A stretch of 64,000 bases of DNA from Boletus sp. NGJ (Eukaryota; Basidiomycota; Agaricomycetes; Boletales; Boletaceae). Shown piece after piece: positions 7,710-55,131 of this stretch. A model generated the notes under the pieces. The model had not been told where the DNA came from and made no database searches. It saw nothing but the letters and a program-made list of their open reading frames with translations. The position numbers and the translations under genes were made by a program. The stretch is from positions 124,001 to 188,000 of the forward strand of contig JAGTXK010000134.1 in the NCBI GenBank assembly GCA_019096195.1, in the 5' to 3' direction. Each line of letters starts with the position of its first letter. Position 1 is the first letter of the stretch.

Positions 7710-8063
7710 CAGTGGCTCAAAAAACTGTCTGCATGTTTGGTCATTTTTCACTAAATGTGTTATTCCCCAATAACCCCTAATCCTTACCCTAACATATAGG
7801 TGTATGAAATAAAGCACTGACCCTTGGCTTTCTATCCATCAAGGTTTTAAGACATATGAATAAGAATTGATGAACTGGCAGCCATTTCAAAACAATGACT
7901 CATTCGGACAGTTTTTTGACTCTAAGTTTTGATTACATATATTGGACCCTAGCATGCTGTAATATGATTACATACATTTGGTAAGGCTTCTATTATGTCA
8001 CCATTATGTAACTGAGTGTCAGACAACATATATAAACCCCATCATTCCATGTTTACTTTCCCC
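7710..8063 (+). repeat. Tc1/mariner end fragment (same family as 13534-15140)
   Basis: This stretch begins with the terminal CAGTGGCTCAAAAAACTGTC and runs through the long inverted repeat and the non-coding leader up to just before the transposase start, as in the left end of the full copy at 13534. The match stops near 8063 and no right end is present, so it is a truncated left end. It cannot encode a transposase. Confidence 0.85.
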
Positions 8064-8949
8064 CATGCTAGAACCAAGGGTTGTAAAAAACCAAGGTCCC
8101 GAGCTCACACCCCAGTTGCATCACAAGGGACAGGAACCCAAACTCAAGGTGTACCCACATTAACCCTTTTCAAATCACTGCTGATTCTAGATTTTTATCC
8201 ATAGGCATAACTCCATGTCAATTAGGAAGAGTGTGCAAGACTCCACTGCCCCCTGATGCAGAGGCATCAACTCTGGGACCTTGGCCGATCAGAAAATAAC
8301 TATATATGGCCATTTACTCCTCACATTATTTTGTAAATAGCTCTGACAATATGATTTACAATTTTGCAAAAAAGTTCGAAATACAATGCTAAGAACACTA
8401 CTGAGGGGCCGAGCATTCCCCAGACGTTGCCCCCACATCTTCCTCCTCCTCCTCCTCACCCAAAGCCCACTCTCCAGCAACTGTCTCCTCTGCAGCCATG
8501 CTCTCCGTATCTATGGCATTGTTGTCCTCGGCTTGAATGGTGGTGATAGTTGGCATGGATACTGTCAATCTGGGTGTGGATTCCCCAGAAAGACCGGCCA
8601 CCTTGGGATCAAAGATTGATGGAAGCTGTGGGAATACTTGGGGAGGCCCCCAACTTCCCTCTGAGATTGCGCCTAGGCCACCGCCCCATGTGACAGTCGT
8701 GGCAACCCAAGTGTGAGGCAGCAGAGCTCAACAGGGAAGGGGGGCAATCAGCCAAGGGGGTGAGCCCTCAGTTGAAGGAGGGCGGAGGGGAGTGTCAGTA
8801 CCATCGAGTTCAGATCCTGCAGCTTGCTGGCCGAGGGGTGGAGTGGGGGAGGAAGGGGAGCCAAGTGCAACTGACTCAGTAACTGTGTTGAAGAACGCTG
8901 AGAATGGTGCCCCATTGATGGCTTCATCACCAGCCTGCTGATGAATGTG
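8064..8949. other. Region downstream of the Zn2Cys6 gene; 3' part of that gene possible
   Basis: Minus-strand open frames at 8398-8601 and 8748-9203 are Ala/Ser/Leu-rich and may include 3' coding or untranslated sequence of the neighbouring minus-strand Zn2Cys6 gene. No independent gene was recognised. Confidence 0.3.
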
Positions 8950-10404
8950 TTGGAATGGGAATCACATTGTTGTGGATGAAGGACAAACCGTATCACATGC
9001 AGTCCAACCCCGGTGGTCTCTGAGCTTGGTGATGACCTGGCTGAACGTTTCCAATGAGTCGGCCATTGCATTGACCCAATCCTCGAGGCGTGAGTGACTT
9101 GCTTGCAGCAGGTGGTGGCTGGCCTGCAGTTGCCAGTGTGCTTGAAGCAGACTCTTATAGTTGCCAGTGTCAGCAGGCTCAGTGCGGCCAGACCGAGCGT
9201 CATCTGATGTTCCAGCAGTGGACAGTCCAGGTGCTTGCATGGCTAGTACCGATTTCTTCACCCTGGGAATCACCACACCTTCAAGGACTATGTACAAAAC
9301 ATTAGTGGGCTGAATATTGCAAGTGTGCATGACTTACCTTGGGCTGGCTTCGATCATTTGGCATTCTTTTGTGGGGGGCCAACCTTGATGGTCAGCGCTG
9401 GCTTATAGGCTGAGGGTGGTCCATGGCATGGGATGCGAATGGCTGGTAATGGTGTGGGGGTGGGTGGTGGTGGTGGGGCATTGCATCGAACCTTTGACCG
9501 AGGTGGGCGAGTGCAAGACTTGCTGCGTTCCTGCAGTTTCTTCGTTCTCTCCAAGAATGGGGATTGGCAGGTAAGGGAACTCAACTGTTGGCACAGTCTT
9601 GCCAGGGAACAGCATACCTTCCACTGGTGGCACTGGACACAAGCATGGCCAGGATTTGGGGTGCACCTGTTGCCACATCGTTTGCAGGCGGCACATACTT
9701 GCTTGGAATTGCCCTCATCCTCCATCTCTTTGGTGGGTGGTGGTGGCCGCAACCTGCCCAGCGAGCGTCCATGAGATTTACCTATCCCTGATGCATCTGA
9801 TGGCTTGATGCGTTGCCTTGAACAACCTTGCTCTTCAGAATCGGTTTCTGGTGGGTCAATTTGCCAGGCCTTGCCCTTGCCTTTGTCCACCTTCTTCGGT
9901 GCCATCTGCACTTTTTTGATGTCAATGTCATCACCATCCTGTGTTGTCCTGACAGCCTGATTTTCAGTGTCGAGCAGCTGTTCTAATGGCCAAGTGACCT
10001 TTGTGGAAGATGTTGCAACCTTGTTTCCAGAATCAACTTGGCCGACATTGAGCCATGGATGATCTGGGTGACTGGAAATGTCATTCTTCAGGATCCTGCT
10101 CCAGTCCAGCCATCGGCTGTTCTGATACTGTGACATCTTGATGTCACAGGCAATGGCCAGGAGAGGTACCATCTCAGCACCACCTGCCACAGCTCAAATT
10201 GTGTCCTAGCACAAATGTTAGTTAGGCTGTTATGGTATGAGAGATATGATCATGCATCAATTGGCCCATGATCTCAGTAATGGCCTGGTGCCATGCTGCT
10301 GTCTGGGCAGCAGCTCCCTCAGTTGTTCCAAGCACTTTCGTTTTGAGAATGTGTTGGATGGCGGCTGTGGCGTCGTCGACAATGGTTTGAATGGTGGAAG
10401 ACAT
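8950..10404 (-). pseudogene. Zn2Cys6-type zinc cluster gene, copy A of a divergent pair
   Basis: The start at 10404 (MSSTIQTIVDDATAAIQ) is chosen because copy B at 55132 begins almost identically. After an intron (about 10235-10175) a long exon runs to 9354. Near its end is a cysteine cluster with spacing C-x2-C-x6-C-x7-C-x2-C-x6-C (reading CAACKRCGNRC, then CVQCHQWKVCC), which fits the fungal Zn2Cys6 binuclear cluster DNA-binding domain. It is followed by a basic, Pro-rich tail. A third exon after the GTAAGT intron (from about 9341) encodes an amphipathic helix-rich segment (LLQAHWQLQASHHLLQ). A TGA near 9355, where copy B reads a sense codon in the same context, truncates the product before exon 3. 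If translated it would be a DNA-binding protein with the cluster unusually far from the N-terminus. The partner is the divergent gene starting at 10761. Confidence 0.6.
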
Positions 10405-10760
10405 GGTGGTGAATGGTGATGCAGAATGGGATGGAAAGAGAAGTGTGGGGCATGGCAAGTTTACCGCCCACTCCACTGCTGACCACATGTGTCACCACGC
10501 CCGATCTAACTTCATCCCATCCCTCCCATTCCACTTTTCCACCATATCTCGGAACAGAGTCACAATGCAAAAGCAAGTTCGGTTCACAATTCCAGGTGAG
10601 TGTGACGTTCCTGTTCTAAAAAAAATTTCCATTTAAAAAAAATCGAATTCATATGCCACTTTGGTCACCATCAGGCTCGGCCAACAGCAAATCAGACTCC
10701 ATTGGTAAGTGATTGGCCTTGGAATTGATTGGTAATTGACCACATTTTAGATCTAGAGAG
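10405..10760. promoter_or_regulatory. Shared intergenic region between the divergent pair, copy A
   Basis: The two start codons at 10404 (minus) and 10761 (plus) are 356 bp apart, so this is probably a bidirectional promoter. Copy B has the equivalent 460-bp gap at 54672-55131. No TATA box or operator was confidently identified. The region is AT-rich on the plus-gene side. Confidence 0.45.
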
Positions 10761-13283
10761 ATGGCAGATGCATCAGATCTGTCGTGGTGCATTCCCACCC
10801 CGCCTCCATTCCATCCTTACCCGCCATCACCGATGACGACTGACTTTAACGATTTTGCTGACACCTGCTTACCAACCCCACCCCCTTTGTGATGCCTGAC
10901 ATCCAGCCAGACATGTTCGCAAGTGCCCACGTTCCAACTCCTCCTCCATTTCTACTGAACAACATTCACATCCCAATGCCACCAAGATTCATTCCAATGG
11001 CCAAAGACCCTCTCCCCTCCATTCCACAAGAGACGGCACAGGCTGGTATCCCTCAGCAGTTGCCTTGCCCAAAAGGCAAGACACATCTACCCACCCAAAA
11101 GCATCAATCAGGTGAGCCAGAGTGGAATGTTCGCATATTGCTTGGTCATGATGCAAGACAAAAGTGTCAGGCAGAGACCATGCAGACCATCAATCAACAC
11201 CATGAGTTCAATCATGATCTCACCTCCATGATGTATATCTCATTACCTTGTCCAAATCTAGTGGCTGCAAGAAATGATGCCGAGCATGATTAGTTCGCAA
11301 AACAGGGCGTCAACATAGATGGAATTCTGGATTTCGGTGAGTGCACAATTAAAGTGTAAATGGCTCATTCTGACAATATTGACAGTGTTTGAAAATGCAT
11401 CCATGGTTGATCGCATGGTGGAGCAAGTATCCAGTGTTCAGCATAAACTGATCGAACATCCGCTTGCTCAGGTGGTGATGGAAATGGCCAGAGCCCTTCA
11501 TTCGGGCCTCTTGGTGAAGAATGGAATTGTTTCAGACCCAGGTAAGGTTATTGAATATGCTGGAATATATTCAAGAGCAGCATGTGTAAGAATAGAATAG
11601 ACATATACGCTAAATCATAGCATGTAGATATGGTGTTCATACAATGAGGAATATGTGGATGCAGTTCAAGGCCACAAATGAGCTCAGTCTATTGGCACAT
11701 TCATGCATGACCTTTGGTCTGCTATGCAGCAGTCAGTAATCCCTGCTATTCTCAGTCTCACCATATGTATCCAGGTAAGTACCCACCCTGCTTGGCCCCA
11801 CCATATACATCGAGGTCAGTCACACCCACACCACTTAGTGTGGTCATATACATCGGTCACCTCTACCCTGCTTGGTGTGGTCGTATCCATTGATGTCAGT
11901 CACCCTCACACTGCTTGGTGTGGTCATATCCATCGAGGTCAGTCACCCTCACACTGCTCAGTCCCGTTATACATATTGAGGTCGGCCATGCTCACACTGC
12001 TCGGTTTGGTCATATCCATTAGTACTTGGTCACCCCCACCCTGCTCAGTCCTGTCATACATATCGAGGTCTGCCATGCTCACACTGCTCAGTGTGGTCAT
12101 ATACATTGGCACTTGGTCACCTCCACCCTGCTCGGTGTGGTTGTATCCATCAAGGTCAGTCACCCTCACACTGCTTGGTCCCGTCGTACACATTGAGGTC
12201 GGCCATGCTCACACCGCTCAGTGTGGTCATATACATTGGCACTTGGTCACCTCCACCCTGTTTGGTGTGGTTGTATCCATCAGTACTTGATCACCCCCAC
12301 CCTGCTCGGTCCTGTCATACACATTGAGGTCAGCCATGCTCACACCGCTCAGTGTGGTCGTATACATTGGTACTTGGTAACCTCTCCCCTGCTCGGTCTC
12401 AGTCGTATCCATTGAGGTCAGCCACCCTCACCCTGCTCGGTGTGGTCATGCATACATCGGTACTTGGCCACCCCCGCCCTACTTGGTCCCACTGTATACA
12501 TCGAGGTCGGTCACCCTCATACTGCTCGGTGTGGTCATATACATCGGCCCTCGGTCACCCCCAACCTGCCTGGTCTTGTCATATACATCGAGGTCAGCCA
12601 CGCTCACACCGCTCGGTCCTGTCGTATATATCGGTGCTTGGATCACCCCCGCCCTGCTCAGTCCCATTGTATGCATTGACCTCAGTCTTACTCACCCCAC
12701 TGGGGGCTGTTTCGTATCCATCGATCCTTCATCTAGTTACCCTTTCCAGGGCCTTCCATATCCTACGTATATGCATGTTAGGTGGGCCCAGCCGGGTCTC
12801 ACGCATCTCATATATCTCAGGCCCGTCACAGTATCATCTGTACATGTCAGGTGTTTTGCAAGCAGGCTCACCATATGCTATGGGTGAATGTCACCACATG
12901 GGCTCCAAGGTTATCATCAATGACCCAACTAAAGGTGACGAGCTGGCTACTATTTGTACCAAGGTGCATGCATTGTTGAGTATATGCGCATACATTCATG
13001 TTTTTGGTTGATTAGATGAATGGTCACATCATGAGTGTACGCTCAACTGACGCAAGTCATCTCAAAAACTCCATCCCACACTATGCTTTGCTAGATACAA
13101 CCAAGCCGACTTCACTTGATCCACCTATTATCGCCTCGAGCGATCAGGCTGAAATGGGTTTAAATCATCCAATCTTAGCTCGTTGGCTTTGCCCAGCAGA
13201 CCAACTTGAGGTGTTTGACAAGGATTCTCAAAAGTACATACAAAGCATTCTCTTCCTTAATGTTCAATTGTATATTTGCTTGT
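10761..13283 (+). pseudogene. TPPPF-repeat / DUF6698-like gene, copy A, 5' part
   Basis: The start at 10761 reads MADASDLSW and is followed by repeats of the motif [IL]PTPPPF, as in copy B. A conserved segment reading NVRILLGHDARQK (about 11130-11170) and another reading HKLIEHPLAQVVMEM (about 11440-11490) match copy B at 54.1 and 53.75 kb. An exon ending TICIQ is followed by GTAAGT at 11775, which opens into the minisatellite. After it come exons at about 12900-12960 and 13015-13230 separated by a GTGCAT...GATTAG intron. The latter exon reads HPILARWLCPADQLEVFD, resembling the start of the agaricomycete DUF6698 domain. In-frame stops upstream show decay. The gene resumes at 20264 beyond the copia insertion. 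Function is unknown. Confidence 0.55.
11777..12740 (+). repeat. Minisatellite inside an intron of the DUF6698-like gene, copy A
   Basis: About twenty imperfect units of roughly 40-60 bp follow one another. Each combines CATATACAT or GTATCCAT, CGAGGTCAG or TTGGTCACC, and CACACTGCTCGGT-like segments. It begins directly after the GTAAGT splice donor at 11775 and ends before the next recognisable exon, so it appears intronic. A homologous array lies at the same place in copy B (about 52880-53560). Long open frames across it are by-products of unit lengths near multiples of three and are not genes. Confidence 0.8.
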
Positions 13284-13533
13284 TGACAATATTCATCCAT
13301 GATCAAGTTCTGAACCATTTCGGTTCTGTCACTTCTGAACCTGGAACCACATCCTGGAACCACTGGTTCCGAAGGTGCTTCTGACATTTTCCCATGCCCT
13401 TCCACAGGTTCCGAGACTATCATCCCGCAGCAGTTCCAGAACTGCTTCCGGAACTTTCCCACACTCATTCCAAACTCAGAATGAGCTTTTATTACAGTTA
13501 AACTTTCATCATTTCTTAGCCAATACTTACATA

Positions 13534-15140
13534 CAGTGGCTCAAAAAACTGTCCGCATGTTTGGTCATTTTTCACTAAACATGTTATTCCCAATTAATCC
13601 CTAATCCTTACCCTAACATATAGGTGTATGAAATACAGCACTGACCCTTGGCGTTCTATCCATCAAGGTTGTAAGACATATGAATATGAATTGATGAACT
13701 GGCAGCCATTTCAAAACAATAACTCATTCGGACAGTTTTTTGACTCTAAGTTTTGATTACATATATTGGACCCTAGCATGCTGTAATATGATTACATACA
13801 TTTGGTAAGGCTTCTATTATGTCACCATTATGTAACTGAGTGTCAGACAACATATATAAACCTCATTATTCCATGTTTATTTTCCCACCATCACCATGAA
13901 ACCCATTTCCATCTCTTAAAGAAACAATATCATCTCTCTCTCCTCTCATGGGCTTTCCTCTAGGAAAATCTCTGCCCAAACTGGCCTAGGGAAGTCTACA
14001 GTATGCCAAGTGCTTCAGGAACTCCAGCCAGAGAAGACTAGGCTTCTTGGTGGCTGTCCTTCCAAGCTTACCTCTACCAACAAAAGAGCTATTGTCCAGC
14101 AAATTATTACTGGCAAGGCCAGGAATGCTGTTCATGCTGCCCAATACATCAATACCATTATTGATACCCCTTTCTATCCTCAGACATTAGAAATACTCTC
14201 AAGGAAGCCTCCTTAAAGGCTGTGGTAAAGAAGAAAAAGCCACTGCTTTCTAGTGGTCACAAGAAAAGAAGATTAGCCTTTGCTCTCAAGTACAGCATTG
14301 GACTGTGGAGGACTGGAAGAGAGTTATATGGTCAGATGAGACCAAGATCAATAGGATTGGGTCAGATGGGCAAGAGTATGTGTGGAAAAAGAAAGGAGAG
14401 GGGCTAATTGCTAGAGAGATCCAAGGCACAGTCAAGTTTGGAGAAGGTTCACTGATGGTATGGGGCTGCATAGGGTGGAATGGAGTGGGGATTTTGAGTG
14501 AGGTGGAGGGGAGAATGGATGCTGAACAGTATGTGGCCATATTGGAGCAGGGGTTGCTACAAAGCATGGAGGAATCTGGAATTCCAGAAGATGACATTAT
14601 CTTTCAACAAGATAATGATCCCAAGCATACCTCTAAAAGAGCCCAAAGATGGTTTGAAGAGCAAGGAATCAAGCTTCTGGACTGGCCTGCACAATCTCCA
14701 GACCTTAATCCCATTGAACATACTTGGAATCACCTCAAGATATGCCTCTTAGGTTATGAAAATGCTTCTACAGGTATTCATCAATTATGGGAAAGAGTAG
14801 TGGAGCAGTGGGGAAAGATTGATGAGGAACAGTGTCAGAAATGGATAGAAAGTATGCCTAGAAGGATTGAAGCAGTTATCAAGGCCAAAGGAGCTCATAC
14901 CAAGTACTAGATACCTAGATAAATTTAGAGTCAAAAAACTGTTCAAATGAGTCATTGTTTTGAAATGGCTGCCAGTTCATCAATTCTTATTCATATGTCT
15001 TAAAACCTTGATGGATAGAACACCAATGGTCAGTGCTTTATTTCATACACCTATATGGTAGAGTAAGGGTTAGGGGTTATTGGGGAATAACGCATTTAGT
15101 GAAAAATGACCAAACATGCAGACAGTTTTTTGAGCCACTG
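13534..15140 (+). mobile_element. Tc1/mariner DNA transposon, copy 1
   Basis: A 1,607-bp element starts CAGTGGCTCAAAAAACTGTC, ends with its reverse complement and is flanked by TA on both sides. Inverted repeats are long, roughly 200-230 bp per end, with a conserved inner block reading ATGAACTGGCAGCCATTTC. It encodes one DD34E transposase reading frame, which is broken. It sits in the copia 5' LTR, so it is younger than that insertion. A nearly identical copy in opposite orientation lies at 28012-29619, and an end fragment at 7710-8063. Confidence 0.94.
13896..14910 (+). pseudogene. Tc1/mariner transposase (DD34E), copy 1, frameshifted
   Basis: The N-terminal part carries a helix-turn-helix (ISAQTGLGKSTVCQVLQEL, about 13960-14030). 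The C-terminal DDE domain is continuous from 14305 to 14910, with catalytic Asp in WSDETK, the second Asp in FQQDNDPKHT and Glu in LNPIEH. The Asp-to-Glu spacing is 34 residues. A TAA lies eight codons after the start at 13896. The frame is lost near 14190 (about one base missing before the segment reading KEASLKAVVKKKK) and again near 14295 (before HWTVEDWKRV). Without these the protein would be about 340 residues, the family's usual length. The same lesions are present in the second copy, so this copy was probably mobilised by another element's enzyme. Confidence 0.92.
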
Positions 15141-18100
15141 TATATTACATGCTTCTTTTGGACCCATTCACACAATGTTACACATAACATAAGACAAGTA
15201 TACCTTTACCCATAGTATATATAGTCTTCACTCACTGACACACACCTCAGTAGTTTTCACCCTTTTAGGCAGCAGCTAAGTCTTGGGCATTCCTGCCCTT
15301 TTCTAGATTCTGTCAGATTATGAGCCCTGTTGGCACAAGCTAAACAGCAACACTCAGTGACAACTCAACTCCACCTCGCACATCCCTTAGTGCACCTCAG
15401 TTCATCACAAACTCACTTCCACACCTTCCACCATGTCTCCCTCAGACACCGTTCATCCAGAGGAAACCCTCACCAGACCAAACAATTACGAAATCTGGAA
15501 GGTTCGCATCTTGGCAAAAGTTCATGCTGAAAAAGTTTTTGGTGTTACTGCCAGAACAGACGTAAAGCCCATTGTTGGCTCACCAAGCATCACTACTGCT
15601 TCCAATGTTCATGAATGGCAGCAATATGACAAGAAGGCTCATGCCTGCTCCAGTGTCAAGGAACTCTTTGACGCTCTCGTGAAACTCCACAAAAGCTCAA
15701 ACATCTCCTCCGCCTTTTACCTTTTCCAACAACTCTTCAATAGTACATGGAATGGGACCTCTGCCGTTGCTGAACACATTTCCACACTCTGAACAGTGGA
15801 AGCTCATCTCGCTGGAATGAAGTTCTCAGTGGATGACAAAGTCCTCTCATTCATCCTCCTAAACTCCCTTCCGAAACCTCCGGAATGGGAAATGTTCAAA
15901 TCTTCTGTTGTCAACACGGTGAAAGATAGCAAACTCACCTTTGATGCCATTGAAACCTGGATCACCACAGAAGATGCAGAACTATATCCTTTCGGCCATT
16001 CCAAGTCGGCCATGAAAGCTTCCAGTCATTTCAAACCATCTACTCACCCCTCAAACACCTCTTCCTGATGTGAGCACTACCTTTCCTTGACATATAACTC
16101 GTCTGACTGCAACACCTACAAAAAGTGGGTCCCTGAGCTGAGAAAATGAGCGTCCAGGAAGTCAGAGAAAGGAAAGGATAAGGTGAATGCAGTGGAGGAA
16201 ACCCCAGATCCTCCAGATATGGTGAATATAGCTAGAGAACATGTATTTCGCTCCACAATGCAATGTGTTCATGCCTATTTGTCATCTGAACCAAAAAGCA
16301 GTGGGAGCAACACACTAATCATTGATTCTGGAGCATCTTCACACATTGTCCCTTACCACTCTTGGTTTCGAACATACTAACCACTACACCCTCCTCGTTC
16401 TGTAACACTTGGAGATGATTCCAACACTATGGCCATAGGAATTGGAACAGTACCACTCATCTCACAAGTGTCTGGAACCACCTATGAGATAATCCTATCT
16501 GAGGTTCTTCTGATTCCCGAATTCCGAATCTCCCTCATTTTTGTGAACTGACTTGCTTCTGCTGGCCTTTCCACTACCTTTCTGGCCAATTCCAACATGT
16601 GCTATGTTTGGAAGCACCAGAACACCATACTTGTCACCACACAAAAAAATGGACTATACCATGCAAGGGTTAATCCAAATGATCAGAAGGAAGCAGCACA
16701 TGCCATAGTGGACATAAATCTTCTACACCGATGCATGGGCCATGTCTCTGTTCACTATATTCAACAGATGGTGAAATCTGGACAACTCCAAGAGATAGAC
16801 ACACTTAGCGGCTCACTGACATTTTGTAAAGCATGTGTCCTTGGAAAGATGAAGAAACTGCCTTTTGAACTCCAAGATGGACCTTGCACCATTCGCCCAC
16901 TTGAAATGATCCACACAGATGTTGGAGGCCCAATAACTCCAAGGTCCTGGGAAGGCTACAGATTTTGGATTGTCATCATAGATGACTTCACTCGTTTCCC
17001 TTGGGTCTACTTCATGAAACACAAAAATGAAGCACTTGGGATCTACAACCAGTGGAAAACAGATGTCCAAACACTCCTTCGCACTGAGATAGGACAAGAG
17101 GACTTCTCAGAATCCTATGTCAAGTTTGTCAGAAGTGATGGAGGAACCGAGTACATCAACAAGGCATTCCGAAGTCAGTTCCGAACCGATGGAACACTTC
17201 ATGAGACCTCGGCTCCATATACTCTGGAACAAAATGGATTAGCAGAACAGATGAACCAAATCCTATGTACTCTTGCAAACACCATGCTGGAAGAATCCAA
17301 ACTTCCAAAGTCTTTCTGGGCTGATGCAATGGCCACTGCTGCTTATGTTACTGCACGTAGCCACTTCCAGACTTGATGAAAAGGTACCCTATCAAGTCTT
17401 CTTCAATTGACAAGTTGATCCCTCCTTCTTCCAGCCCTTTGGATGTCCAGCATATGCCTACACGCCAAAGGAACAATGAGGAGGAAAATTCCAATCACAT
17501 GGAAAGAAATGCATTATGATTGGATACACATATGGACAACAAGCCTATAAGCTTCTGGACATAGAACATCAAACCATCATCTCCAGCCGACATGTTATTT
17601 TCAATGAAATCAGAACCATCTCCGGAACTGAGTCAGCTCCATGGAATGGTCCTGCTGTTGAGGGACAGTGGGAGGGCCTAATTCCAGAGCATCTTCGTCA
17701 ACCAGAGGATAATAGTGGAGATGATGATGACCATTGTCCACCTAATTCCAGGCCAGTGAGAGAAGATGCAGTTTGAGCAGATATTCCTGAACGACCAGCA
17801 AGTCCTGCCATAGCAGAGCTTGCAGATCAATTTGAACAACTTCATCTGGATACACTGCATCTCCCAGCTCCTCCAGCTATTCCAGCTGTTTCAGTCCTTC
17901 TAGCTGTTCCAGTTCCCCCAGCTGCTCCAGCCCCTCCTATTCCTACACCTGTCCCAGCTCATCCTCCTGCTCAACAAGCAGCTGATGTATGTAAAAGTAA
18001 TCGACCACGATGACCAGCAAACAAGAACAGAGAATATCAGCATACTTTGGATGAAGAGACTACAAGACAAGCCCATCAACAACAGAAACAAGCAGAACAC

Positions 18101-19845
18101 TCAGAACCACCGGAACCACCACTGGAACATCTGGAACCACCACTGAAATGTCCAGAATCACTGGAACATGTGGAAGATGAACCCAATATCCCAGGAGCAT
18201 TTTCAGCATCCATAGAAAACATGAAGGACTTCATATTTGCTGGTTCTGCAAACTCAAACTCAAATGAACCCCTTCCTAGAACACTCAAGGAGGCTTACTT
18301 TGGAGTACATACAGAGCTCTGGAAATCGGCAGTGGACAAAGCCTCAATTCCAATCACATTTATGAAACTGCTCTCATTCCAGAGGAGGTCATCCCTATCA
18401 CTTCCAAACCTGTCTTCCGCATCAAATGAGACCAAAGTGGAAATGTGAAATGATACAAGGTTTAGATAGTTGCATGAGGATTCACCCAAAGGGAAGGAGT
18501 TGATTACCAGGAAGTCTTTGCCCCAGTAGCAAATCTCAATTCAGTCTGTATTCTGATTGCCCTGGCTGCAAAACACAACCTAGAGTTGGATCAGATGGAT
18601 GTCTCCACAGCATACCTGAATGGAGAACTTGAGGAAGATTTATACATGCTACCTCTAGATGGTGTTCCTATCCAACCCGGATATTGCTGGAAGCTCCGAT
18701 GTTCCCTGTATGGGCTCAAACAGGCTGGACAAACTTGGAACAAAACCCTGGATTAAAAGCTTGGAGAACTTGGCTTCACTCGTTTGAATGCAGAGACATG
18801 CCTCTATGTCTACCGAAAGGACAAACAGGTCTGCTTTCTGGTGGTCTATGTTGATGACCTACTTCTAGCTACCAGCTCTCAGAAGTTCATGGATTCTGTC
18901 AAAAAGAAACTTTCTTCCAGTTTCAAAATGTGGGATCTTAGAAAAGCCAAGTACATCTTGGGAATTGAAATCAAGCGCAATCGTGAGCTTTGAACCATTT
19001 CTCTATCCCAATCACAGTACTCCCAGACAGTCCTGGACTGTACTGGAATGTCAAACTGTAAGCCTGTATGGACTCCGATGGCACACAATTCCCACCTCTC
19101 TGCAACTGATCCAGAGGACGACCATAGCATTCCAGAAATGGTCATTGAAGGACGTCAAGTCTCTTACCTCACCATCATTGGGTCCTTGATGTATCTCATA
19201 CTCAGAACATGTCCAGATATTGCATATATAGTTGGGACACTTAGTCGGTTCAGTGCAAAACCCAAACTGGTTCATTGGGAAGCAGCAAAGCGAGCACTCA
19301 GGTATATCCAAGCCACAAAGAACATGGAACTCAGATTTGATGGAACTGAAATCTCAATGGACTTGGACTTCCATGGATACACCGACGCTGGGTGGTCTCA
19401 GAATCCTGACAACTCCCAATCCACTGCTAGTTTTCTTTTCATGAGCAATTGTGGGGCTATCTCCTGGTCCAGTAAACAACAAAGCATGGTTGCACTCTTC
19501 ACTACCAAGTCAGAATACATTGGACTTAGTAACACTGGACAGCATCTTGCATGGCTTCAGACCTTTTGATGAAATTGGACATACACAAAAGGATCCAACT
19601 GAGCTATTCTGTGACAATCAAGTGGCTATAATCCTATCCCATGATCCACAGTTCCAAGCACGAACCAAGCACATCCAATGGAAGTACCACTTCGTCAGAG
19701 ATGACCTCGTCGAAAAGGGGGAAGCAATTGTTCACTATGTTCCAACTGGAGACATGGTGGCAGATATACTTACAAAACCACTTGTAAGAGATCAACACTG
19801 GAAGTTCGTTAAGGCTATGGGACTACGGTTATACTCGAGTGGGAG

Positions 19846-20257
19846 TGACAATATTCATCCATGATCAAGTTCTGAACCCAGAAGTGCCATCCTGGAACCA
19901 CATCCTGGAACCACTGGTTCTGAAGGTGCTTCCAACATTTTCCCATGCCCTTCCACAGGTTCCAAGACTATCATCCCGAAGCAGTTCCGGAACTGCTTCC
20001 GGAACTTTCCCACACTCATTCTGAACTCAGAATGAGCTTTTATTATGGTTAGACTTTCATCATTTCTTAGCCGATACTTACATATATTACATGCTTCTTT
20101 TGGACCCGTTCACACAATGTTACACATAACATAATACAAGTATACCTTCACCCATAGTATATATAGTCTTCACTCACTGACACACACCTCAGTAGTTTCC
20201 ACCCTCTTAGGCAGCAGCTGAGTCTTGGGCATTTCTACCCTTTTCTAGATTCTGTCA
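19846..20257 (+). repeat. 3' LTR of the copia element
   Basis: This 412-bp LTR begins TGACAATATT right after a purine-rich tract (CGAGTGGGAG) and ends TCTGTCA, followed by the CTTGT target duplication. It matches the two halves of the 5' LTR. Confidence 0.9.
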
Positions 20258-21376
20258 CTTGTAGAGCTCAGAAAGATCTGGCATTGGGTGTGATACCCAT
20301 GTGGGCTGAGGACTTTCTGTCTGTCTTTTGGTCTGGAGAGATGCCTGGTGGTGATTATGACCCAGACGACATGCTTCATGAACTGTTCAAAAGTTATTTT
20401 CTTGTGTGGGTAAGTCACTTGTTCATCTATTTTGATGTGGGCCCGAAATGTGGAACCTTTTCAGATTGGTCGACATATTTTCTTAGGTCCATCCCATGCT
20501 ATTGAACATGACTCCCGTCGTGGGTGTTCATGCAATGCAGTTTTGCATGACATGACGACTGTACAGGCAGAGCACATTGCATATATTTGTATTCAAGTAA
20601 GTGCACTGCTCATTTCGGTTCTTATCATTTCTCATTGGTCTTATTTGAGGCACGCTTCGGAATCTCTTCCCTGGATCAATGGAACGAGATAGATGGCAAT
20701 CTAAACTACCTCACGATGTACGGAGTCATTGTTCGTTTCATCCAAGAGCCCATCGACACAAGTTGGAGGGATGACTTGCTAAAATGGTGGAACGTGTATG
20801 CTTCCATTTTCTTACCACCAACGAATTTCTATTCTAACTAGTTTTGTAAAGGCAAATGTTCAATGATGAGAAAGGACGCCATGCTTCCTCGACGACAACT
20901 ACAAATAGCAACTCTGCACCTCGCATGAGCACAATGGAATGAATGTGCGCTCAAGTCGAAGCACGCCGTCGTGCAGCAGAGACATCTCAGCATGTCAATA
21001 CTTTTGCCGAACTGGATCCTTCCCTTTCTTCCAATGCTCCACCTGTGAGCGATCCTCTGTATCCCTTAGTTCCTTCGCCATCCAGTCAAGCTCTGGTAAG
21101 CCACCCTATCTCCAGTATTAATACTATATTACTCAATCCACACAGTTGTCGACCATTTCCACTGATCCTCCAATGACCCTGCCCAGGCCCTCCCACAGAG
21201 CACCACCCATGGTCCACAGTCCTTTAACGGACAAGGAAGAGCTTGCACAACTCCCACTTACCCCCATGACAAACAGGAGAACAACTATCTTGAAGGCAAA
21301 GGGCAAGAAAAGGGCTGTGGCCCTAGACGAGGGAGAGGGTGGTCGTGCCAAGAGACCCAAGCGCACCCGCAAGTAG
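20258..21376 (+). pseudogene. DUF6698-like gene, copy A, 3' part
   Basis: Coding sequence resumes at 20264 after an AG acceptor formed by TGTAG just outside the copia element. The exon reads LALGVIPMWAEDFLSVFW and YDPDDMLHELFKSYFLVW and ends at a GTAAGT near 20409. Exons follow that read IGRHIFLGPSHAIEHDSRRG, HDMTTVQAEHIAYICIQ (ending at GTAAGT, about 20596) and ARFGISSLDQW with LLKWWN. This series (YDPDD, then ARLHDMT-like, then RFGISS, then LLxWWN) is what I recall for DUF6698. The C-terminal exons end with a Lys/Arg-rich tail and a stop at 21374-21376. The 3' part alone shows few lesions. Function of the domain is not known to me. Confidence 0.6.
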
Positions 21377-26795: not shown

Positions 26796-28011
26796 TATCC
26801 CATCTATGCATCAGTAAATACAGGATTTCATCATAGTGCTCATAGTGCCATAGTAGTTTCATAGATAACTCATAGTATTCATAATATCATAGTATTGAAA
26901 GTGTATTCATAGTATCCATAGTATATTCATAGTGTGCATAGTATCATAGTATCATAGTACGATAGCATTTCATAGTGTTCATAGTGTTCATAGTGTCATA
27001 GTATTGAATGTGTATTCATAGTATTCATAGTATATTCATAGTGTTTATAGTATCATAGTGTCATAATACCATAGCATTCATAGTACATCCATAGTAGTCA
27101 TAGTCATAGTAGTAATTTTAAACTAAACCTAAACCTAAACCTAAATCAAAAGTATGCAAAAAGTGTAGTCAAAGGTGTAGTCAAATGTTGTACAAAAAGT
27201 GTAGGAAAGAGTGTAATACAGTGTAGCAAAAATACGCATCAAATGTAGCAAAAGTGTAGCAAACAAAGTGTAGTAAAAAAAAGCAAACAAAGTGTACCAA
27301 AAGTGCACACCAAAGTGTAGTAAAAGTGTAGTCATAAAGTGTACCAAAAGTGTAGACCTACATTCAAAAAATATCCAAGTCCATTTTCCCACACTTAGTG
27401 TTAAAAAAGTGGACATTGTTTGCCAATGTTTGTGCCACCATTCTTATATAAACAAGCCAGACTTCAAAAACTTTCCCACACTCTCTTGTTTCTTAATTTT
27501 ATCCTTCTCTACTTATTACATAAAGTCAACACTTTACTTTATAAATCATTAGGATTGGGATTAGGATTGGGATTGGAACTGGGACTGGGATTGGGACTAG
27601 GATTAGGATTAGGGTTAGGGTTAGGATTAAAATTAGAATTAGAATTAGAATTAGAATTAGTAGAATTAATATTTGATTGAATTTGAAATTAGAATTGGCT
27701 TGAAATTGAATTAGAATTAGAATGAGAATTAGAATTGCTAAGCCACTATGGAAGCACTATGTATACTATGGCATCACTATGACCATACTATGAGACACTA
27801 TGAGAATACTATGAGAATACTATGACATCACTATGACCACTATGAAAGTACTATGAGAATACTACAAGACACTGAGAATACTATGACAGACTATGGCTAC
27901 ACTATGAACAGACTATGAGACAATGTCATAGTACTATTAAACCACTATCCAGTTGGACCCTCACTATGAGCACTATGTTACTGTCCAGCACTGGACAGCA
28001 CTGGACAGCTA

Positions 28012-29619
28012 TAGTGGCTCAAAAAAACTGTCTGCATGTTTGGTCATTTTTCACTAAATGCGTTATTCCCCAATAACCCCTAACCCTTACTCTACCATAT
28101 AGGTGTATGAAATAAAGCACTGACCATTGGTGTTCTATCCATCAAGGTTTTAAGACATATGAATAAGAATTGATGAACTGGCAGCCATTTCAAAACAATG
28201 ACTCATTTGAACAGTTTTTTGACTCTAAATTTATCTAGGTATCTAGTACTTGGTATGAGCTCCTTTGGCCTTGATAACTGCTTCAATCCTTCTAGGCATA
28301 CTTTCTATCCATTTCTGACACTGTTCCTCATCAATCTTTCCCCACTGCTCCACTACTCTTTCCCATAATTGATGAATACCTGTAGAAGCATTTTCATAAC
28401 CTAAGAGGCATATCTTGAGGTGATTCCAAGTATGTTCAATGGGATTAAGGTCTGGAGATTGTGCAGGCCAGTCCAGAAGCTTGATTCCTTGCTCTTCAAA
28501 CCATCTTTGGGCTCTTTTAGAGGTATGCTTGGGATCATTATCTTGTTGAAAGATAATGTCATCTTCTGGAATTCCAGATTCCTCCATGCTTTGTAGCAAC
28601 CCCTGCTCCAATATGGCCACATACTGTTCAGCATCCATTCTCCCCTCCACCTCACTCAAAATCCCCACTCCATTCCACCCTATGCAGCCCCATACCATCA
28701 GTGAACCTTCTCCAAACTTGACTGTGCCTTGGATCTCTCTAGCAATTAGCCCCTCTCCTTTCTTTTTCCACACATACTCTTGCCCATCTGACCCAATCCT
28801 ATTGATCTTGGTCTCATCTGACCATATAACTCTCTTCCAGTCCTCCACAGTCCAATGCTGTACTTGAGAGCAAAGGCTAATCTTCTTTTCTTGTGACCAC
28901 TAGAAAGCAGTGGCTTTTTCTTCTTTACCACAGCCTTTAAGGAGGCTTCCTTGAGAGTATTTCTAATGTCTGAGGATAGAAAGGGGTATCAATAATGGTA
29001 TTGATGTATTGGGCAGCATGAACAGCATTCCTGGCCTTGCCAGTAATAATTTGCTGGACAATAGCTCTTTTGTTGGTAGAGGTAAGCTTGGAAGGACAGC
29101 CACCAAGAAGCCTAGTCTTCTCTGGCTGGAGTTCCTGAAGCACTTGGCATACTGTAGACTTCCCTAGGCCAGTTTGGGCAGAGATTTTCCTAGAGGAAAG
29201 CCCATGAGAGGAGAGAGAGATGATATTGTTTCTTTAAGAGATGGAAATGGGTTTCATGGTGATGGTGGGAAAATAAACATGGAATAATGAGGTTTATATA
29301 TGTTGTCTGACACTCAGTTACATAATGGTGACATAATAGAAGCCTTACCAAATGTATGTAATCATATTACAGCATGCTAGGGTCCAATATATGTAATCAA
29401 AACTTAGAGTCAAAAAACTGTCTGAATGAGTTATTGTTTTGAAATGGCTGCCAGTTCATCAATTCTTATTCATATGTCTTAAAACCTTGATGGATAGAAC
29501 ACCAATGGTCAGTGCGTTATTTCATACACCTATATGTTAGGGTAAGGGTTAGGGGTTATTGGGGAATAATGTGTTTAGTGAAAAATGACCAAACATGCGG
29601 ACAGTTTTTTGAGCCACTG
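28012..29619 (-). mobile_element. Tc1/mariner DNA transposon, copy 2
   Basis: This is an inverted, nearly identical copy of 13534-15140, flanked by TA (28010-28011 and 29620-29621). The left terminal base reads T where C is expected (TAGTGGCTC), a C-to-T change. It is inserted into copy L of the satellite-armed element, whose sequence resumes at once on the other side. Confidence 0.94.
28243..29257 (-). pseudogene. Tc1/mariner transposase (DD34E), copy 2, frameshifted
   Basis: The translated segments (a 68-codon N-terminal frame, a 61-codon frame and a 201-codon catalytic frame with WSDETK, FQQDNDPKHT and LNPIEH) are identical to those of copy 1, and the stop after the start codon and both frame losses fall at the same places. 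A shared set of lesions means both copies descend from one already inactive source. The enzyme must have been supplied in trans when at least one of them moved. Confidence 0.92.
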
Positions 29620-29636
29620 TAGTCCTGTTTTTACTG

Positions 29637-38037: not shown

Positions 38038-39125
38038 CATCAGTAAAAACAGGACTAACTGTCCAGTGCTGGACAGTACTGGACAGTAACACAGTGCCCA
38101 TAGTGAGGGTCCAACTGAATAGTGGTTTGATAGTACTATGACAGTGTCTCATACTCTATTCATAGTATGGCCATAGTCTGTCATAGTATTCTCATAGTAC
38201 TTCCATAGTGGCCATAGTATTCTTATAGTACTTTCATAGTGGTCATAGTATTCTCATAGTGTCTCATAGTGTCTCATAGTATTCTCATAGTACTTCCATA
38301 GTGGTCATAGTGATGCCATAGTATACATAATGCTTCCATAGTGGCTTAGCAATCCTAATTCTAATCCAATTTCAAGCCAATTCTAATTTCAAATTCAATC
38401 AAATATTAATTCTATTAATTTTAATTCTAATTCTAATCCCAGTCCCAATCCCAATCCCAATCCTAATCCTAATGATTTACAAAGTGAAGTGTTGACTTCA
38501 TGTAATGAGTAGAGAAGGATAAAATTAAAAAACAAGAGGGTGTGGGAAAGTTTTTGAAGTCTGGCTTGTTTATATAAGAATGGTGGCACAAACATTGGCA
38601 AACAATGTCCGCTTTTTTAACACTGAGTGTGGAAAAATGGACTTGGATATTTTTTTTGAGTGTAGGTCTACACTTTTGGTACATATTGTGACTACACTTT
38701 TACTACACTTTGGTGCGCATTTTTGGTACACTTTTGGTACACTTTGTTTGCTACACTGTACTACACTCTGCTACACTTTTGTTTGCTTTTTTTTACTACA
38801 CTCTATTTGCTACACTGTACTACACTCTTTCCTATACTTTTTGTATAACATTTGACTACACATTTGACTACACATTTTGTGCACTTTTTGACTACACATT
38901 CTGTATGCTTTTAATTTAGGATTAGGATTAGGATTAGGATTAGCTTAAAATTACTATTATGACTATGACTACTATGAATGTACTATGAATGCTATGAAAT
39001 GCTATGATACTATGATACTATGATACTATGATACTATGAACACTATGAATATACATATACTATGGATACTATGAATACACTTTCAATACTATGAGCACTA
39101 TGATGAAATCCTGTATTTACTGATG
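38038..39125 (-). mobile_element. Satellite-armed non-autonomous DNA element, copy R
   Basis: This 1,088-bp copy is inverted relative to copy L and uninterrupted. It starts CATCAGTAAAAACAGGACT and ends with the complement of CATCAGTAAATACAGGATT, giving inverted ends of about 19 bp. AA lies on both sides, consistent with a 2-bp target duplication. Next to the left end is a short hairpin (ACTGTCCAG TG CTGGACAGT). The arms hold CATAGT arrays in opposite orientation; the middle has (AGGATT)n telomere-like runs, GAATTA runs, a TACACTTTTG-type array and a unique core. No coding capacity was found. Confidence 0.8.
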
Positions 39126-43575: not shown

Positions 43576-46500
43576 ATGGCTACAAGACCGTTGCGGTCTT
43601 GTAACTTTTGCAGAACACCCTCTCCCGCCTACATGGCACAGTACAACTGTGTCTGTGTGCGATTCGGATTCGGCCAACCTCACCTTGTCTCAAAGGTAAC
43701 CTGGTATCGCCATTTTCACGCTGCCGGGACAGACGAGGAGCGACAACGCATACGAGAGGCCAGAGACTCTGGAAGTAATCCTCGCCCGAGAGGTAGACAA
43801 CGTACCAACCTCCCGAAGCGAGCTAGAAGCCCAGATGGTGCCAGTGAACCCCTGCACTCGCCGAAACGTGTTCGAGAGGTACGTTGTCAAATCTCCTTTC
43901 TATTGTTTTCTCTCTAATGTACCTCCAGATGAGTCGTTCTCCAGATCCGGCGTTAGATTTTGGTTCCCCCGACCCAGAGCCTCAAAGTCCTCGTTCACCG
44001 CGCAGTCCTTCTCGTTCACCCCGGAGTCCCCCTCGCAACCATCCTGTTGTTTATCAACGGAGGACACGTCCGCTCATCGCCCTGGATGACCTCGCCCAAT
44101 CTACGACATTCAAGCCCATGGTAGACTCCATGGCATTCGTCCAGGCACTTGCAACTGCGTCCACCACGGACCTGGTAGCGAAGATCAGTGACCAAGCCTT
44201 GGAGAGGCTTCATAACCCCCCCAACATCCCTCTCGTCATTGAGAGCGCTGGGATCCGCCACAGTATATCAACATACCTCGCTCTCGAGCACGCTTCACAA
44301 GATGCGTATGATCGCATCACCCGTTCACTCAAACGAAATCTTGGCGATGCCCAGGCTGTCAACGACATCCAGAGTTATTACAATGTTGAGAAACTCATTG
44401 CTACCTACACAGGTGTCGAGCCCATCCGGCACGATATGTGCCCCAACTCTTGCCTCGCCTTCACCGGTCCATTCGCTCACCTTGACGCATGTGAAATCTG
44501 TCACACATCTCGCTGGAATGAACAAAAGCTGCAGGGAGCTTACGTTAGAGTTCCTGCACAACAATTCACAACTATCCCAGTTGGCCCACAGCTCCAGGCA
44601 CGCTATCGCAGTCCTGAAAGTGCTCAGGCGATGCGCTATCTTTGGGAACGTGCACAACAGACCTTGAATCAATTCCAGCAGTCGAGAACCATTCCAGTTC
44701 TCGATGACATAGCGGTTGGATGGGATTTCCTTGGTGCTGTCCTCGACGGAGACATAAAGGAACATGACGTCGTTCTCATGGTATCCCTAGATGGTGCCCA
44801 ACTATTCGATAGCAAGGAATCCGATTGTTGGATGTACATATGGGTTATAGTCAACTTATCTCCTCAGGTCGGCTACCGCAAATTGCACGTTCTCCCTGGT
44901 GGCTTTATACCTGGTCCCAACAAGCCGAAAAACCTAGATTCCTTCCTCTTTCCCGGTATGCACCACCTCGCAGCGCTCCAACGCGAGGGACTGTCTATAT
45001 GGGACGCTCTCACCGACTCCCGGTACATCTCGTACCCATACCTTCTTTTTACAACAGCAGATGGTCCAGGACTCGTTTATTGGGACGGGATGGTAGGGCA
45101 TAGTGGCAAGAATGGCTGTCGGCTCTACTGTGGTATTCTAGGTCGTCGCAAAGAACGCGTAAATCATTACTACCCAGCACTCTTATGCCCCCGAGATCAC
45201 GTTCCCACTGCAAGTAGCCATCCTGACATTGATGTATTTGACCTGCCTGATGGTGGTTCGGCCGAATATGCAGATAACCTCAAACGGATTGTGTCTGTGC
45301 GCAACCAAACACAATGAGACCGCACAAAGACCGATACTGGTCTAACGAAACCCCCGCTTATCCTCGGACTTCAACCAACTCGCTCGCTTGGCGTCCCCCT
45401 CTGCATGACAACAGATATTATGCACCTTGCTGGCAACATTTCCGACCTCTTTATTTCTCTCTGGCGTGGCACTATCGATGTTGGTCCTGGTGATGACAAG
45501 TCCACCTGGGACTGGGCTGTTCTGCGAGACCAGAATGTTTGGGCAACTCATGGCACGCAAGTTGAGAAAGCTGGGTACCACCTTCCAGGATCATTCGATC
45601 GCAAGCCTCGCAACATCGCCGAGAAACTCAATACGCAATACAAGACATCCGAGTTTCAGCTATATACATTCGGACTTGCCCCAATCCTTCTCCATTCACT
45701 TCTCCCGCTGAAGTATTGGACCAATTTCTGTAAGCTCGTTCGTGGCTTCCAAATTATCTGCCAGTACAGTATAACCTCTCAGCAACTTCAAGACGCCCAT
45801 GTACTTCTCTGCACCTGGGAGCTCGAATTTGAGCTCTTCTACTATCAGCTCAAACATGAACGTCTTCATTTTGTTCACCCAGTTGTTCATCAAGTCGTCC
45901 ATCTTGTCTCGGAAGCCATTCAGAAAGGTCCGCCGATTTGCTATGGAACGTACTATTGGAAACCTCGGACAAGAGATCCGCCAGCCCTCGCACCCTTATG
46001 CCAATCTTGCTCAAGAAGGTGTCCGCCGTTGTCAAGTGAACACCCTGTTATCTGTCATTCCAGAGCTCGATGGTCCGTCCAAGACTCTTCCCTACGGTTC
46101 TATTGACATTGGTTCAGGCTATGTGCTCCTTCGCAAGTGAGCCAGGTACACTGAAGCCATCCGGAACTTCCTCCCTGTTGGGCAAGAAGTTCCGCGCATA
46201 GTTAAATGGGCTCGTCTTCTCTTGCCCAATGGACAGATTGCTCGCTCAGCATGGAGGGAAGCCCTCAAGGCACCCGACCAGTTGCGCGTGTCTCGCAATA
46301 TAAAGGTACAATTTACACTCAGCATTGGATGATGCTAGCTACTACTAAGTACTTTGACAGTTTACTTTAGACAGAAAAGTTCGTGTTGGAGAAGTCCAGT
46401 ACTTCACGCAGCTCGCTACGACCACTCTGGCAGGAGGGTGGAGTTTCCGAAATGTTGCTATTGTCAAACTCTACTCTGAGCCTCATGGTGAGCTATTGAA

Positions 46501-50739: not shown

Positions 50740-52760
50740 TTCAACACCTCAATAAGGATGGTGATCATTATCTTGGTTTCAGGGCTGTTGTCCATCTCCC
50801 ACATTGTCCTCGCGTTATGGTACTACTATCATGCACTACTCTCTGTCTTCAGTCGTCTTGAGGCTATTGAACTCCCTCGCTTTCTCAATGATACCGGTCT
50901 CCTACCAATCTTACCCACTCATCTGACTTGTGCATACTATCTGCCATCTTGCTTCCCCATCTCCTGTCTTGAAAGCCGATGACATCTGATTTCTTTGACC
51001 TCAGCGGATATACCAATTCTTCCACCAGAAGCGATGACACATGCTTGTGATTCACTACTTCCCATCCTTGAGGAGCTACCAGGATTGTGTGATGTTGCGG
51101 AGGAACCGGAATCAATTGATAAGCTTGACACTACTCGCAGTGACGAAGCCTTGTGCAGAAATTGGATGTGTGGGGAATCAGATGACAGGCACATCGTTGT
51201 GAACCTCCCTCACCACGCTAAGTCTCCAAGTGACTCCTGCTGTTCCAGAGCTATTTCTGGTGAATGTTATGCTGGGTAACAATGTGACACGTTCCTGTAT
51301 AACCCCTGTTGGATTATAGGACTAGCAGGACTTGAGGGATCACTCAACCTCCAGAGGCCCAATGGTTTATTTTGACTGGGGACCAACTGCTAGCTTTATG
51401 TAGAGTCCTCTCGTTACCTCTACGACTGATGGTGGAGTCTCGGATTTACCATGGAATCCCAATCCTATAAGAAGGGTGGGCAGACCAGTGCGCAGGCCAA
51501 GGAGCAGTAGCCTTCCGTCTGCTGATTCCTTGGGCTTATTGGGCCTAGTATCGGTGGTGGAGTCCCGATGTACGAATGCCGGTGGCGGAGTCCCGGGCTT
51601 GCTGGGTCAGTGGCGGAGTCCTGATTGACGACGACCAACCTCTTGTTGGTTGTTTGTGTTGCCGAAGCTTTTAGGAGCTGGTAACGGCAATGATGGCACA
51701 TAAGTGCGAAGTGATGAGTAGGATTATCACGAGCACGAGGGTGAGCACCTCCAGATCATGGGAGATGGCTTCTGAGGTGAAGTGGAACCTTTAGCGGGAG
51801 AAGCAGTAGATTACACGGGAAGGAGTGTAGATCTAGGTTAGAGTTACATGAAGGGCCCACGTCCCTATTTATAGACCTTACCCATCTAGGGCAGGCTTCA
51901 TAACGAATATAGTAATGTTTAGTCGCAGACGAAAGATTACTATAAACGGATCAAGGCATGAGTCGAATGGGGAAAGTAGGAATACTGGGCTATGCGTGAG
52001 AGAGCATAGCCAAGGAGGCAATGTCTATGATCGGGTCAAAAAGGAAGAGAGCATGTATCAGGTGAAATAGGGAGGCGGTGTCCATACCAAACGGATAGGT
52101 TCCTAAAAAGGAAGTTACAAATAACTTCCTAGAAGGGTAGTTCTGGATGGGGCGATGTCTGGGTCGGTGTCGCGGGGGGAATCCCAGGTCAGAGTCGAAG
52201 AATAGGTCGTCCCATAGTCCTATGGGGGGAGAAGGAAGGAGAAAAGATGTACCCCCTTCGGTAACCGTAACAGTGAACTGCAAAATGGACGCTTGAACAT
52301 ACTAGGTGTTTGCTCGCCACCAATATTTAGGAAACAGTGTAATTTTGAAGGATTTCAGGATCCACAGACTTCTTGTCTGAATACCATGGAACTCAACACT
52401 GCAACTATAGCACCCAGAGAGGATCTTGATGGTGATCAACTGCTGATGATTGCCACGTTTTGCACATATTCAACACTACCAACAGCAACTTTTGCCCCTC
52501 CTTCTCCATTGCCATGGACAGATGTGATCTCACTCTCACCCTCTCCAATTAGTCAACAACACCACTGTTGTCCATTTGAAAGAGCCAGAGTTGTTCGCTT
52601 CCCTGGTCATTCAAAGTCTCCCCGATTGCAAGTCAACAAGGTTGAAGCAAATCTCATGTGTAATGTACCACCTTCTCCTCCGAAACATGCATTATATCAA
52701 GCCCATGTGGTCACAATCCCCATAGCATATGGTGAGCCTGCTTGCAAAAGGCCTGACATG
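50740..52760 (+). pseudogene. Unknown plus-strand gene split by a solo LTR
   Basis: Coding-like sequence precedes the LTR (50995-51259: LPPEAMTHACDSLLPILEEL, then DKLDTTRSDEALCRNW) and follows it (52332-52769: NTMELNTATIAPREDLDGDQ, then VVRFPGHSKSPRLQV). A plausible intron with donor GTGAAC just at the LTR target and acceptor ATTTAG at 52330 separates the parts. I could not fit the reading phases of both sides, so at least one frame is lost. A hydrophobic segment at 50761-50830 (MVIIILVSGLLSISHIVLAL) may belong to another frame. No family was recognised. Confidence 0.35.
51265..52272 (-). repeat. Solo LTR, Ty3/gypsy-type family G1, perfect target duplication
   Basis: A 1,008-bp block starts TGTTATGC and ends CGTAACA, flanked by GTGAA on both sides, a perfect 5-bp duplication. 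It matches the blocks at 1557-2565 (same orientation) and 4581-5571 (opposite). No internal region is present. Confidence 0.9.
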
Positions 52761-54671: not shown

Positions 54672-55131
54672 GTCTAAAATGACATTAAATGCCAATCCAA
54701 ACCTGGGCCAATCACATACCAACAGAGTCATTCTCAGTGTAAACTGAGACTGACATTTGATTGCTTGTGACCAAGGCCACATCTGCTTTGGAACCACATA
54801 AATATTTCTCTACACTGAGTATAGTTGCACATACCTGGGATCCAGAATTGAACTTGCTTTTGCATGGCAAGTAGGTGCCGAAACAGAGGAAAGATAGAAT
54901 GCAAGGGAAGGATTGCTAAAGGATTTAAATTGGATGTGGTGATGTGTTTAGTTGCCGGCAGAGTGCTCGATTATGTGTGGAAAATGTGGACAATAATGCA
55001 ATCAGTGGTAATTGCTGACAAATAATGGCAGAGAGCCAATCGGTGGAAACTTCTGATTGGCATTTGAGTACTAAAGTGACCTGCACCCCACTCCTCTCTG
55101 TCCAATTCATTCTCCACCAGTTTGAACCATC
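54672..55131. promoter_or_regulatory. Shared intergenic region between the divergent pair, copy B
   Basis: The 460-bp gap between the start codons at 54671 (minus) and 55132 (plus) corresponds to 10405-10760 in copy A. No specific site was identified. Confidence 0.4.

Follow-up and report, generated by a model that had tools for sequence, protein, structure and literature searches.

TET-carrying Kyakuja elements of Agaricomycetes, which produce 7-bp target duplications, are described in the main text of Kojima 2025 (PMC12730594), where Iyer et al. 2014 are cited as the first to link KDZ and TET. According to the consulted parts of the respective papers, TnpA of En/Spm recognises subterminal repeats and is required for transposition (PMC2613891), and VANC binds short motifs in the tandem arrays of VANDAL elements and causes a loss of methylation (PMC5735166).

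Here we analysed a stretch of 64,000 nucleotides from Boletus sp. NGJ (the window; C133:124001-188000 of the host assembly, which has 32.8 Mb in 141 contigs), in which a divergent pair of genes, one with a Zn2Cys6-like cysteine cluster (Zn) and one with TPPPF repeats, is present twice. We found that this pair almost certainly belongs to a KDZ element. With moderate confidence, we interpret both genes as accessory to a Kyakuja-like KDZ transposon that carries TET, has multiplied in the host and is now largely decayed, and whose Zn protein may bind the terminal arrays of the element. The term Kyakuja-like is used here on account of the 7-bp target duplications, not of a transposase tree.

Two decayed copies of the gene pair in the window

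Self-comparison of the window confirmed two divergent Zn/TPPPF pairs in opposite orientation and homologous at the DNA level (64-77% alike), as claimed in the first-pass annotation. Segments 9475-10450, 10790-10888 and 11266-11619 of copy A aligned with 56055-55086 (64%), 54615-54517 (77%) and 53951-53599 (73%) of copy B, respectively, and the array at 12156-12904 aligned with 53437-52700 (68%). Copy A (about 8065-12905) is the truncated right half of a KDZ-type transposon whose left half is missing, as judged by homology to other copies, which set in at 8064 in several loci and stopped at 12905. Its right-hand terminal segment (12730-12905) is common to many copies according to the genome matches. 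The left edge adjoins a remnant of 357 bp (7710-8066), named Tc1-like by eye and of the same kind as two elements at 13532-15142 and 28010-29621, which are 99% alike, lie in opposite orientation, have inverted ends of about 220 bp each and were also classed as Tc1-like by eye. Copy B starts at 52699, is opened by insertions from about 56324 and runs past the window end (64000) to C133:204660. Its full span was set at C133:176699-204660 because both ends carry a 7/7 target duplication (TTATATC, at 52692-52698 and, outside the window, at C133:204661-204667). KDZ and TET matches of copy B lie beyond the window edge, and five query pieces for KDZ, CxC2 and TET found no match inside the window.

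The Zn gene of copy A occupies 8398-10404 on the minus strand in several exons, according to start and stop positions, frames and dN/dS, its 3' limit being deduced from a stop past the acidic tail in one 311-aa frame of locus L010. In copy B, the 5' part of the gene (55132-56242, plus strand) contains an early in-frame stop. The TPPPF gene lies at 10565-11540 (plus strand) in copy A, where its frame is interrupted, and at 53650-54865 (minus strand) in copy B, with approximate 3' limits in both cases; the two copies of the pair are thus decayed. The Zn start codons reported previously (10404, minus strand, and 55132, plus strand) were retained, but TPPPF starts earlier than had been proposed, at a conserved ATG (10565 in A, 54865 in B) that opens a short conserved first exon, MQKQV. 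Owing to this earlier ATG, the gaps between the two genes measure about 160 bp (A) and 266 bp (B) instead of 356 and 460 bp.

The six cysteines (9609-9695 on the minus strand of copy A; 55835-55921 on the plus strand of copy B) have exactly the same spacing in both copies, CX2CX6CX7CX2CX6C, so that the shared Zn2Cys6-like arrangement noted before was corroborated. This spacing fits the Zn(II)2Cys6 (PF00172) pattern, CX2CX6CX5-12CX2CX6-8C. The best PF00172 score, 14.2 bits (E 0.047, in L004), was below the Pfam cut-off of 21; the remaining Zn pieces had no PF00172 match in Pfam, and a PDB profile search with the Zn alignment returned no match. By eye, the Zn protein also shows a coiled-coil-like stretch and an acidic tail.

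No Pfam family, PF20414 (DUF6698) included, was matched by the TPPPF pieces. The DUF6698 gene was found just outside copy A as two pieces matching PF20414, 13028-13243 (plus strand; E 3.9e-10) and 20462-20793, between which an element whose repeated ends are LTR-like is inserted (13284-20257). The first-pass annotation had treated TPPPF and DUF6698 as one gene and had extended the unit to 21376, which takes in this unrelated LTR element together with the DUF6698 gene. A single TPPPF-DUF6698 gene is ruled out, as the unit ends at 12905 and no PF20414 match was among those listed at copy B in the genome-wide search. Our search for literature on DUF6698 found none. Across the host genome, DUF6698 matches were located within 1.5 kb of 4 of the 40 listed element ends (13028 in copy A, C37:99936, C106:5881 and C42:30499), against 0.18 expected under uniform placement, in a count based on 50 places hand-picked from 116 PF20414 matches. 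The window also holds a frame with a tnp2-family transposase domain (43848-45317; PF02992, E 1.4e-8), which represents a different DNA transposon.

Linkage, ends and gene content of the KDZ element

In the host assembly, the Zn query produced 46 matches at 34 places and the TPPPF query 37 matches at 28 places, matches being merged when on the same strand and within 2.5 kb; these numbers are minimum values, and stops occur in many of the matches. A divergent TPPPF match was present within 3 kb at 26 of the 34 Zn places and absent at the other 8, and only 2 of the 28 TPPPF places had no Zn partner. The count of divergent neighbours that had been proposed as a check thus came out, in the host genome, in favour of two genes that spread together, but they do so as part of a KDZ transposon and not as a self-contained pair. 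KDZ was detected downstream of Zn, on the same strand and within 25 kb, at 20 of the 34 Zn places (C3 counted twice). It was not in place at 14, copy A among them; for 5 of these 14 (C106, C11, C17, C71 and C82) the contig ends no more than 7 kb away on the KDZ side. Against a fixed unit, 9 of the 33 KDZ places had no Zn match within 25 kb, the orientation of the pair with respect to KDZ is reversed at C17, and KDZ lies on the unexpected side of the pair at C109.

When 20 loci were compared in pairs, homology extended beyond the Zn gene wherever the contig was long enough, and it had an abrupt limit next to TPPPF, which is 12905 in copy A. The Zn/TPPPF pair is therefore the right half of a DNA transposon of 13-28 kb, ordered as end array, TET, KDZ/CxC2, unnamed frames, the divergent Zn and TPPPF genes, and end array. 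In L030, the far half encodes a KDZ transposase (PF18758; E 3e-25, 89.6 bits against a curated cut-off of 26.6) and CxC2, the KDZ-associated cysteine cluster (PF18803; E 5e-23, 81.7 bits against 27); it also includes a TET/JBP gene of the CcTET (AG) type (PF12851; E 2e-10, 40.7 bits against 34.9). A broader PF18758 search yielded 88 matches, many of them from other KDZ lineages. The further open frames between KDZ and Zn are similar in L010 and L018, and no Pfam domain was matched by them. The TET piece of L030 aligned with CcTET of Coprinopsis (E 2e-16) and retains the HxD motif together with the distal His and the Asp337 position, residue roles being those given for CcTET (HxD, distal His, Asp337, Gly331) in the main text of PMC12730594. 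At the position of CcTET Gly331 this piece (L030:2402-2974) has Arg, where Kyakuja elements have Gly or Ser according to that text.

Among the seven copies for which both ends were read, four (C97, C101, C33 and copy B) are flanked by 7/7 target duplications and C68 by one of 6/7; C3 (4/7) and C114 (1/7) have none, which counts against our interpretation, and the best of 42 wrong end pairings reached 5/7. Common ends and target duplications, whose search had been recommended in the first-pass annotation, accordingly exist, but at the limits of the larger KDZ element. The last 201 bases of the copy A end matched 40 scored places (out of 66 candidates), some being the inverted counterparts located at the other end of a single element. 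The outermost ends read GGGCTC and ATGTG and carry inverted repeats, of 230 bp at 89% in C97 and of 1.1 kb at 82% in C101. In four copies (C101, L023/L029; C37:71 kb, L026; C42:30 kb, L043; C129:22 kb, L042) the two kinds of end have changed places with respect to the genes, as would be expected had the interior been inverted between them.

The terminal arrays consist of 43/44-bp units with a CGG core and span 11769-12730 in copy A and 52850-53610 in copy B; the array core, CACCCTGCTCGGT, was matched 23 times in A and 14 times in B with up to 4 mismatches. At up to 3 mismatches, the window contained 70 core matches, compared with a mean of 22.5 and a maximum of 31 in shuffled windows; because shuffled windows match too, single core matches mean little and it is the regular spacing that constitutes the evidence. 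In each of the three copies examined (C97, C101 and C133:56-74 kb), regular 43/44-bp arrays stand at the two ends in inverse orientation to each other. The array had been taken for an intronic minisatellite, which is ruled out by these inverse arrays at both element ends and by its position 3' of, and outside, the last conserved TPPPF exon; it is the terminal array of the transposon. A separate inverted pair in the window (26809-28011 and 38056-39125; about 1.1 kb, 78% alike), rich in short tandem repeats with ATTAGG/TTAGGA runs, possibly represents the repeat-rich ends of another element of roughly 12 kb.

Constraint, CpG decay and the proposed role of the pair

All dN/dS values were obtained by the Nei-Gojobori method, from pairs that are not independent and with ratios raised by decay after insertion. 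For Zn, the median was 0.42 (range 0.32-0.85; 85 of 91 pairs with dS below 1.5, from 14 sequences), with about 0.35 between subfamilies and 0.77 between copy A and its C33 relative. KDZ and TET gave medians of 0.32 (6 pairs, 4 sequences) and 0.24 (3 pairs), and TPPPF one of 0.69 (15 pairs, 6 sequences). All six cysteines of the Zn cluster are kept in 15 of the 19 covering rows, that is, in 14 of 18 distinct ones given that copy A appears twice, and lost cysteines read Tyr; L016, L020, L021 and L027 had no covering row. The 11-sequence Zn alignment was picked by cysteine pattern, so the invariant cysteines in that alignment are no test. As judged from sequence comparison, the Zn protein is under constraint and TPPPF is only weakly constrained. 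Because of the ratio of about 0.35 between subfamilies and the persisting cysteines, we conclude that Zn was selected during the spread of the element.

CpG dinucleotides are depleted in both copies, with observed/expected ratios of 0.35 (A genes), 0.27 (B genes), 0.50 (A array) and 0.23 (B array), the whole window having 0.54. By comparison, the ratio was 1.08 at 22-26 kb and 0.93 at 40-46 kb, a segment which includes the tnp2 transposase frame; the decay is not limited to KDZ elements, since 48-50 kb is also low (0.30). Between copy A and its C33 relative we counted 234 differences over 2,397 columns, among them 77 CpG transitions and 17 transversions, and 17 of 95 CpG sites are in common. 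The CpG in the array core often reads TG or CA, a replacement that is the usual trace of deaminated methylcytosine. This CpG decay suggests that the copies were formerly methylated.

Since the element also encodes a transposase and a DNA-modifying enzyme of TET type, we regard the pair as part of the transposon's own kit. KDZ, in keeping with the role of this transposase family in moving elements, would move it. The Zn protein would be the element's own DNA-binding factor, with the 43/44-bp units of the two end arrays as its targets; these units contain CGG, a triplet that fits a protein of Zn2Cys6 type. That it binds the arrays is proposed tentatively, by analogy. Such binding might, on the model of TnpA in En/Spm, serve to assemble the transposition complex. 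On the model of VANC in VANDAL, it might instead act with the TET enzyme to keep methylation off the element, and both roles may apply. For TPPPF we envisage a rapidly evolving partner whose expression would be driven from the short gap that it shares with Zn, or it may be cargo. A more specific version, which we consider doubtful, is self-targeted demethylation, in which the Zn protein, with TPPPF as a bridge, would bring the element's own TET to the CpG-bearing 43/44-bp arrays at its two ends and spare the rest of the genome. If true, the element would erase its own silencing marks in a sequence-specific manner.

Other explanations place the pair differently. An independent mobile or selfish module of two genes would account for the strong linkage of Zn and TPPPF, but homology extends past the Zn gene in loci neither cut by contig ends nor rearranged (20 loci, pairwise), and the sharp ends and target duplications are found at the limits of the larger element; such a module is ruled out in the copies examined and very improbable overall. 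It is extremely improbable that A and B derive from one segmental duplication, as the first-pass annotation had considered. Recent events of this kind, of at least 9 kb, do exist in the host (C133:31-41 kb versus 64-74 kb, 98% and inverted; C50 versus C35, 99%), but A and B are just 64-77% alike, and B is bounded by two ends and a target duplication of its own; we therefore reject this origin. For the transposon taken as a whole, a DNA-binding protein in selfish service remains a plausible idea.

Within the transposon, the pair might instead be captured cargo with no role in transposition or silencing. The weak constraint on TPPPF (dN/dS 0.69) and the KDZ places that have no Zn match within 25 kb (9 of 33) agree with this, but the ratio of about 0.35 for Zn between subfamilies and the persistence of its cysteines do not, and we consider cargo unlikely. 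Alternatively, the Zn protein could leave the arrays alone and act through the divergent gap as a regulator of transcription of genes of the element (or the host). The shortness of the gap and the divergent arrangement would suit such a regulator, as would the coiled-coil-like stretch followed by an acidic tail (by eye), which resemble those of many fungal activators; against it stand the regular arrays of CGG-core units at both ends, and we judge it quite unlikely. Accessory genes serving the KDZ transposon through its terminal arrays remain our preferred interpretation. A caution applies to annotation: where a genome of this kind has gene models with a Zn cluster or TPPPF repeats, these may belong to transposons and not represent host regulators.

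Comparison with known systems

TET-carrying Kyakuja elements have been published, and we found no description of a Zn/TPPPF pair within them in the literature searched. The pair was undescribed in titles and abstract openings on Kyakuja, Dileera, KDZ transposons of Agaricomycetes and DUF6698, and the main text of PMC12730594 makes no mention of a Zn-cluster/TPPPF pair, zinc, Zn2Cys6 or tandem repeats; the supplementary transposon sequences of that work may contain these genes unnamed. How a fungal transposon TET is aimed at its own DNA is not settled in that main text, and the present element offers a testable candidate, namely a protein that is under constraint and of DNA-binding type, combined in a single element with CpG-bearing arrays at its two ends.

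The element resembles Kyakuja, as described in the main text of PMC12730594, in its KDZ transposase, its CcTET-related TET/JBP gene and its 7-bp target duplications. The two Laccaria families described there have CA..TG termini and lack TIRs, whereas long inverted arrays ending in GGGCTC/ATGTG are found here. With fungal Zn(II)2Cys6 regulators (PF00172) the Zn protein shares the exact cysteine spacing, followed by a coiled-coil-like stretch and an acidic tail, but its sole matching piece scores below the Pfam cut-off and its cluster has a central position.

CACTA En/Spm with TnpA, as far as the consulted part of PMC2613891 describes it, likewise encodes a second protein of DNA-binding type and has repeats of a motif at each end; there, however, the transposase belongs to another superfamily, and Zn binding to the arrays is here only predicted. 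Tandem arrays, an additional protein that is possibly array-specific, and a link to methylation are shared with VANDAL and VANC. In that system, according to the part of PMC5735166 consulted, binding and demethylation by VANC were measured, whereas for the Boletus element both are inferred and the element codes for its own TET.
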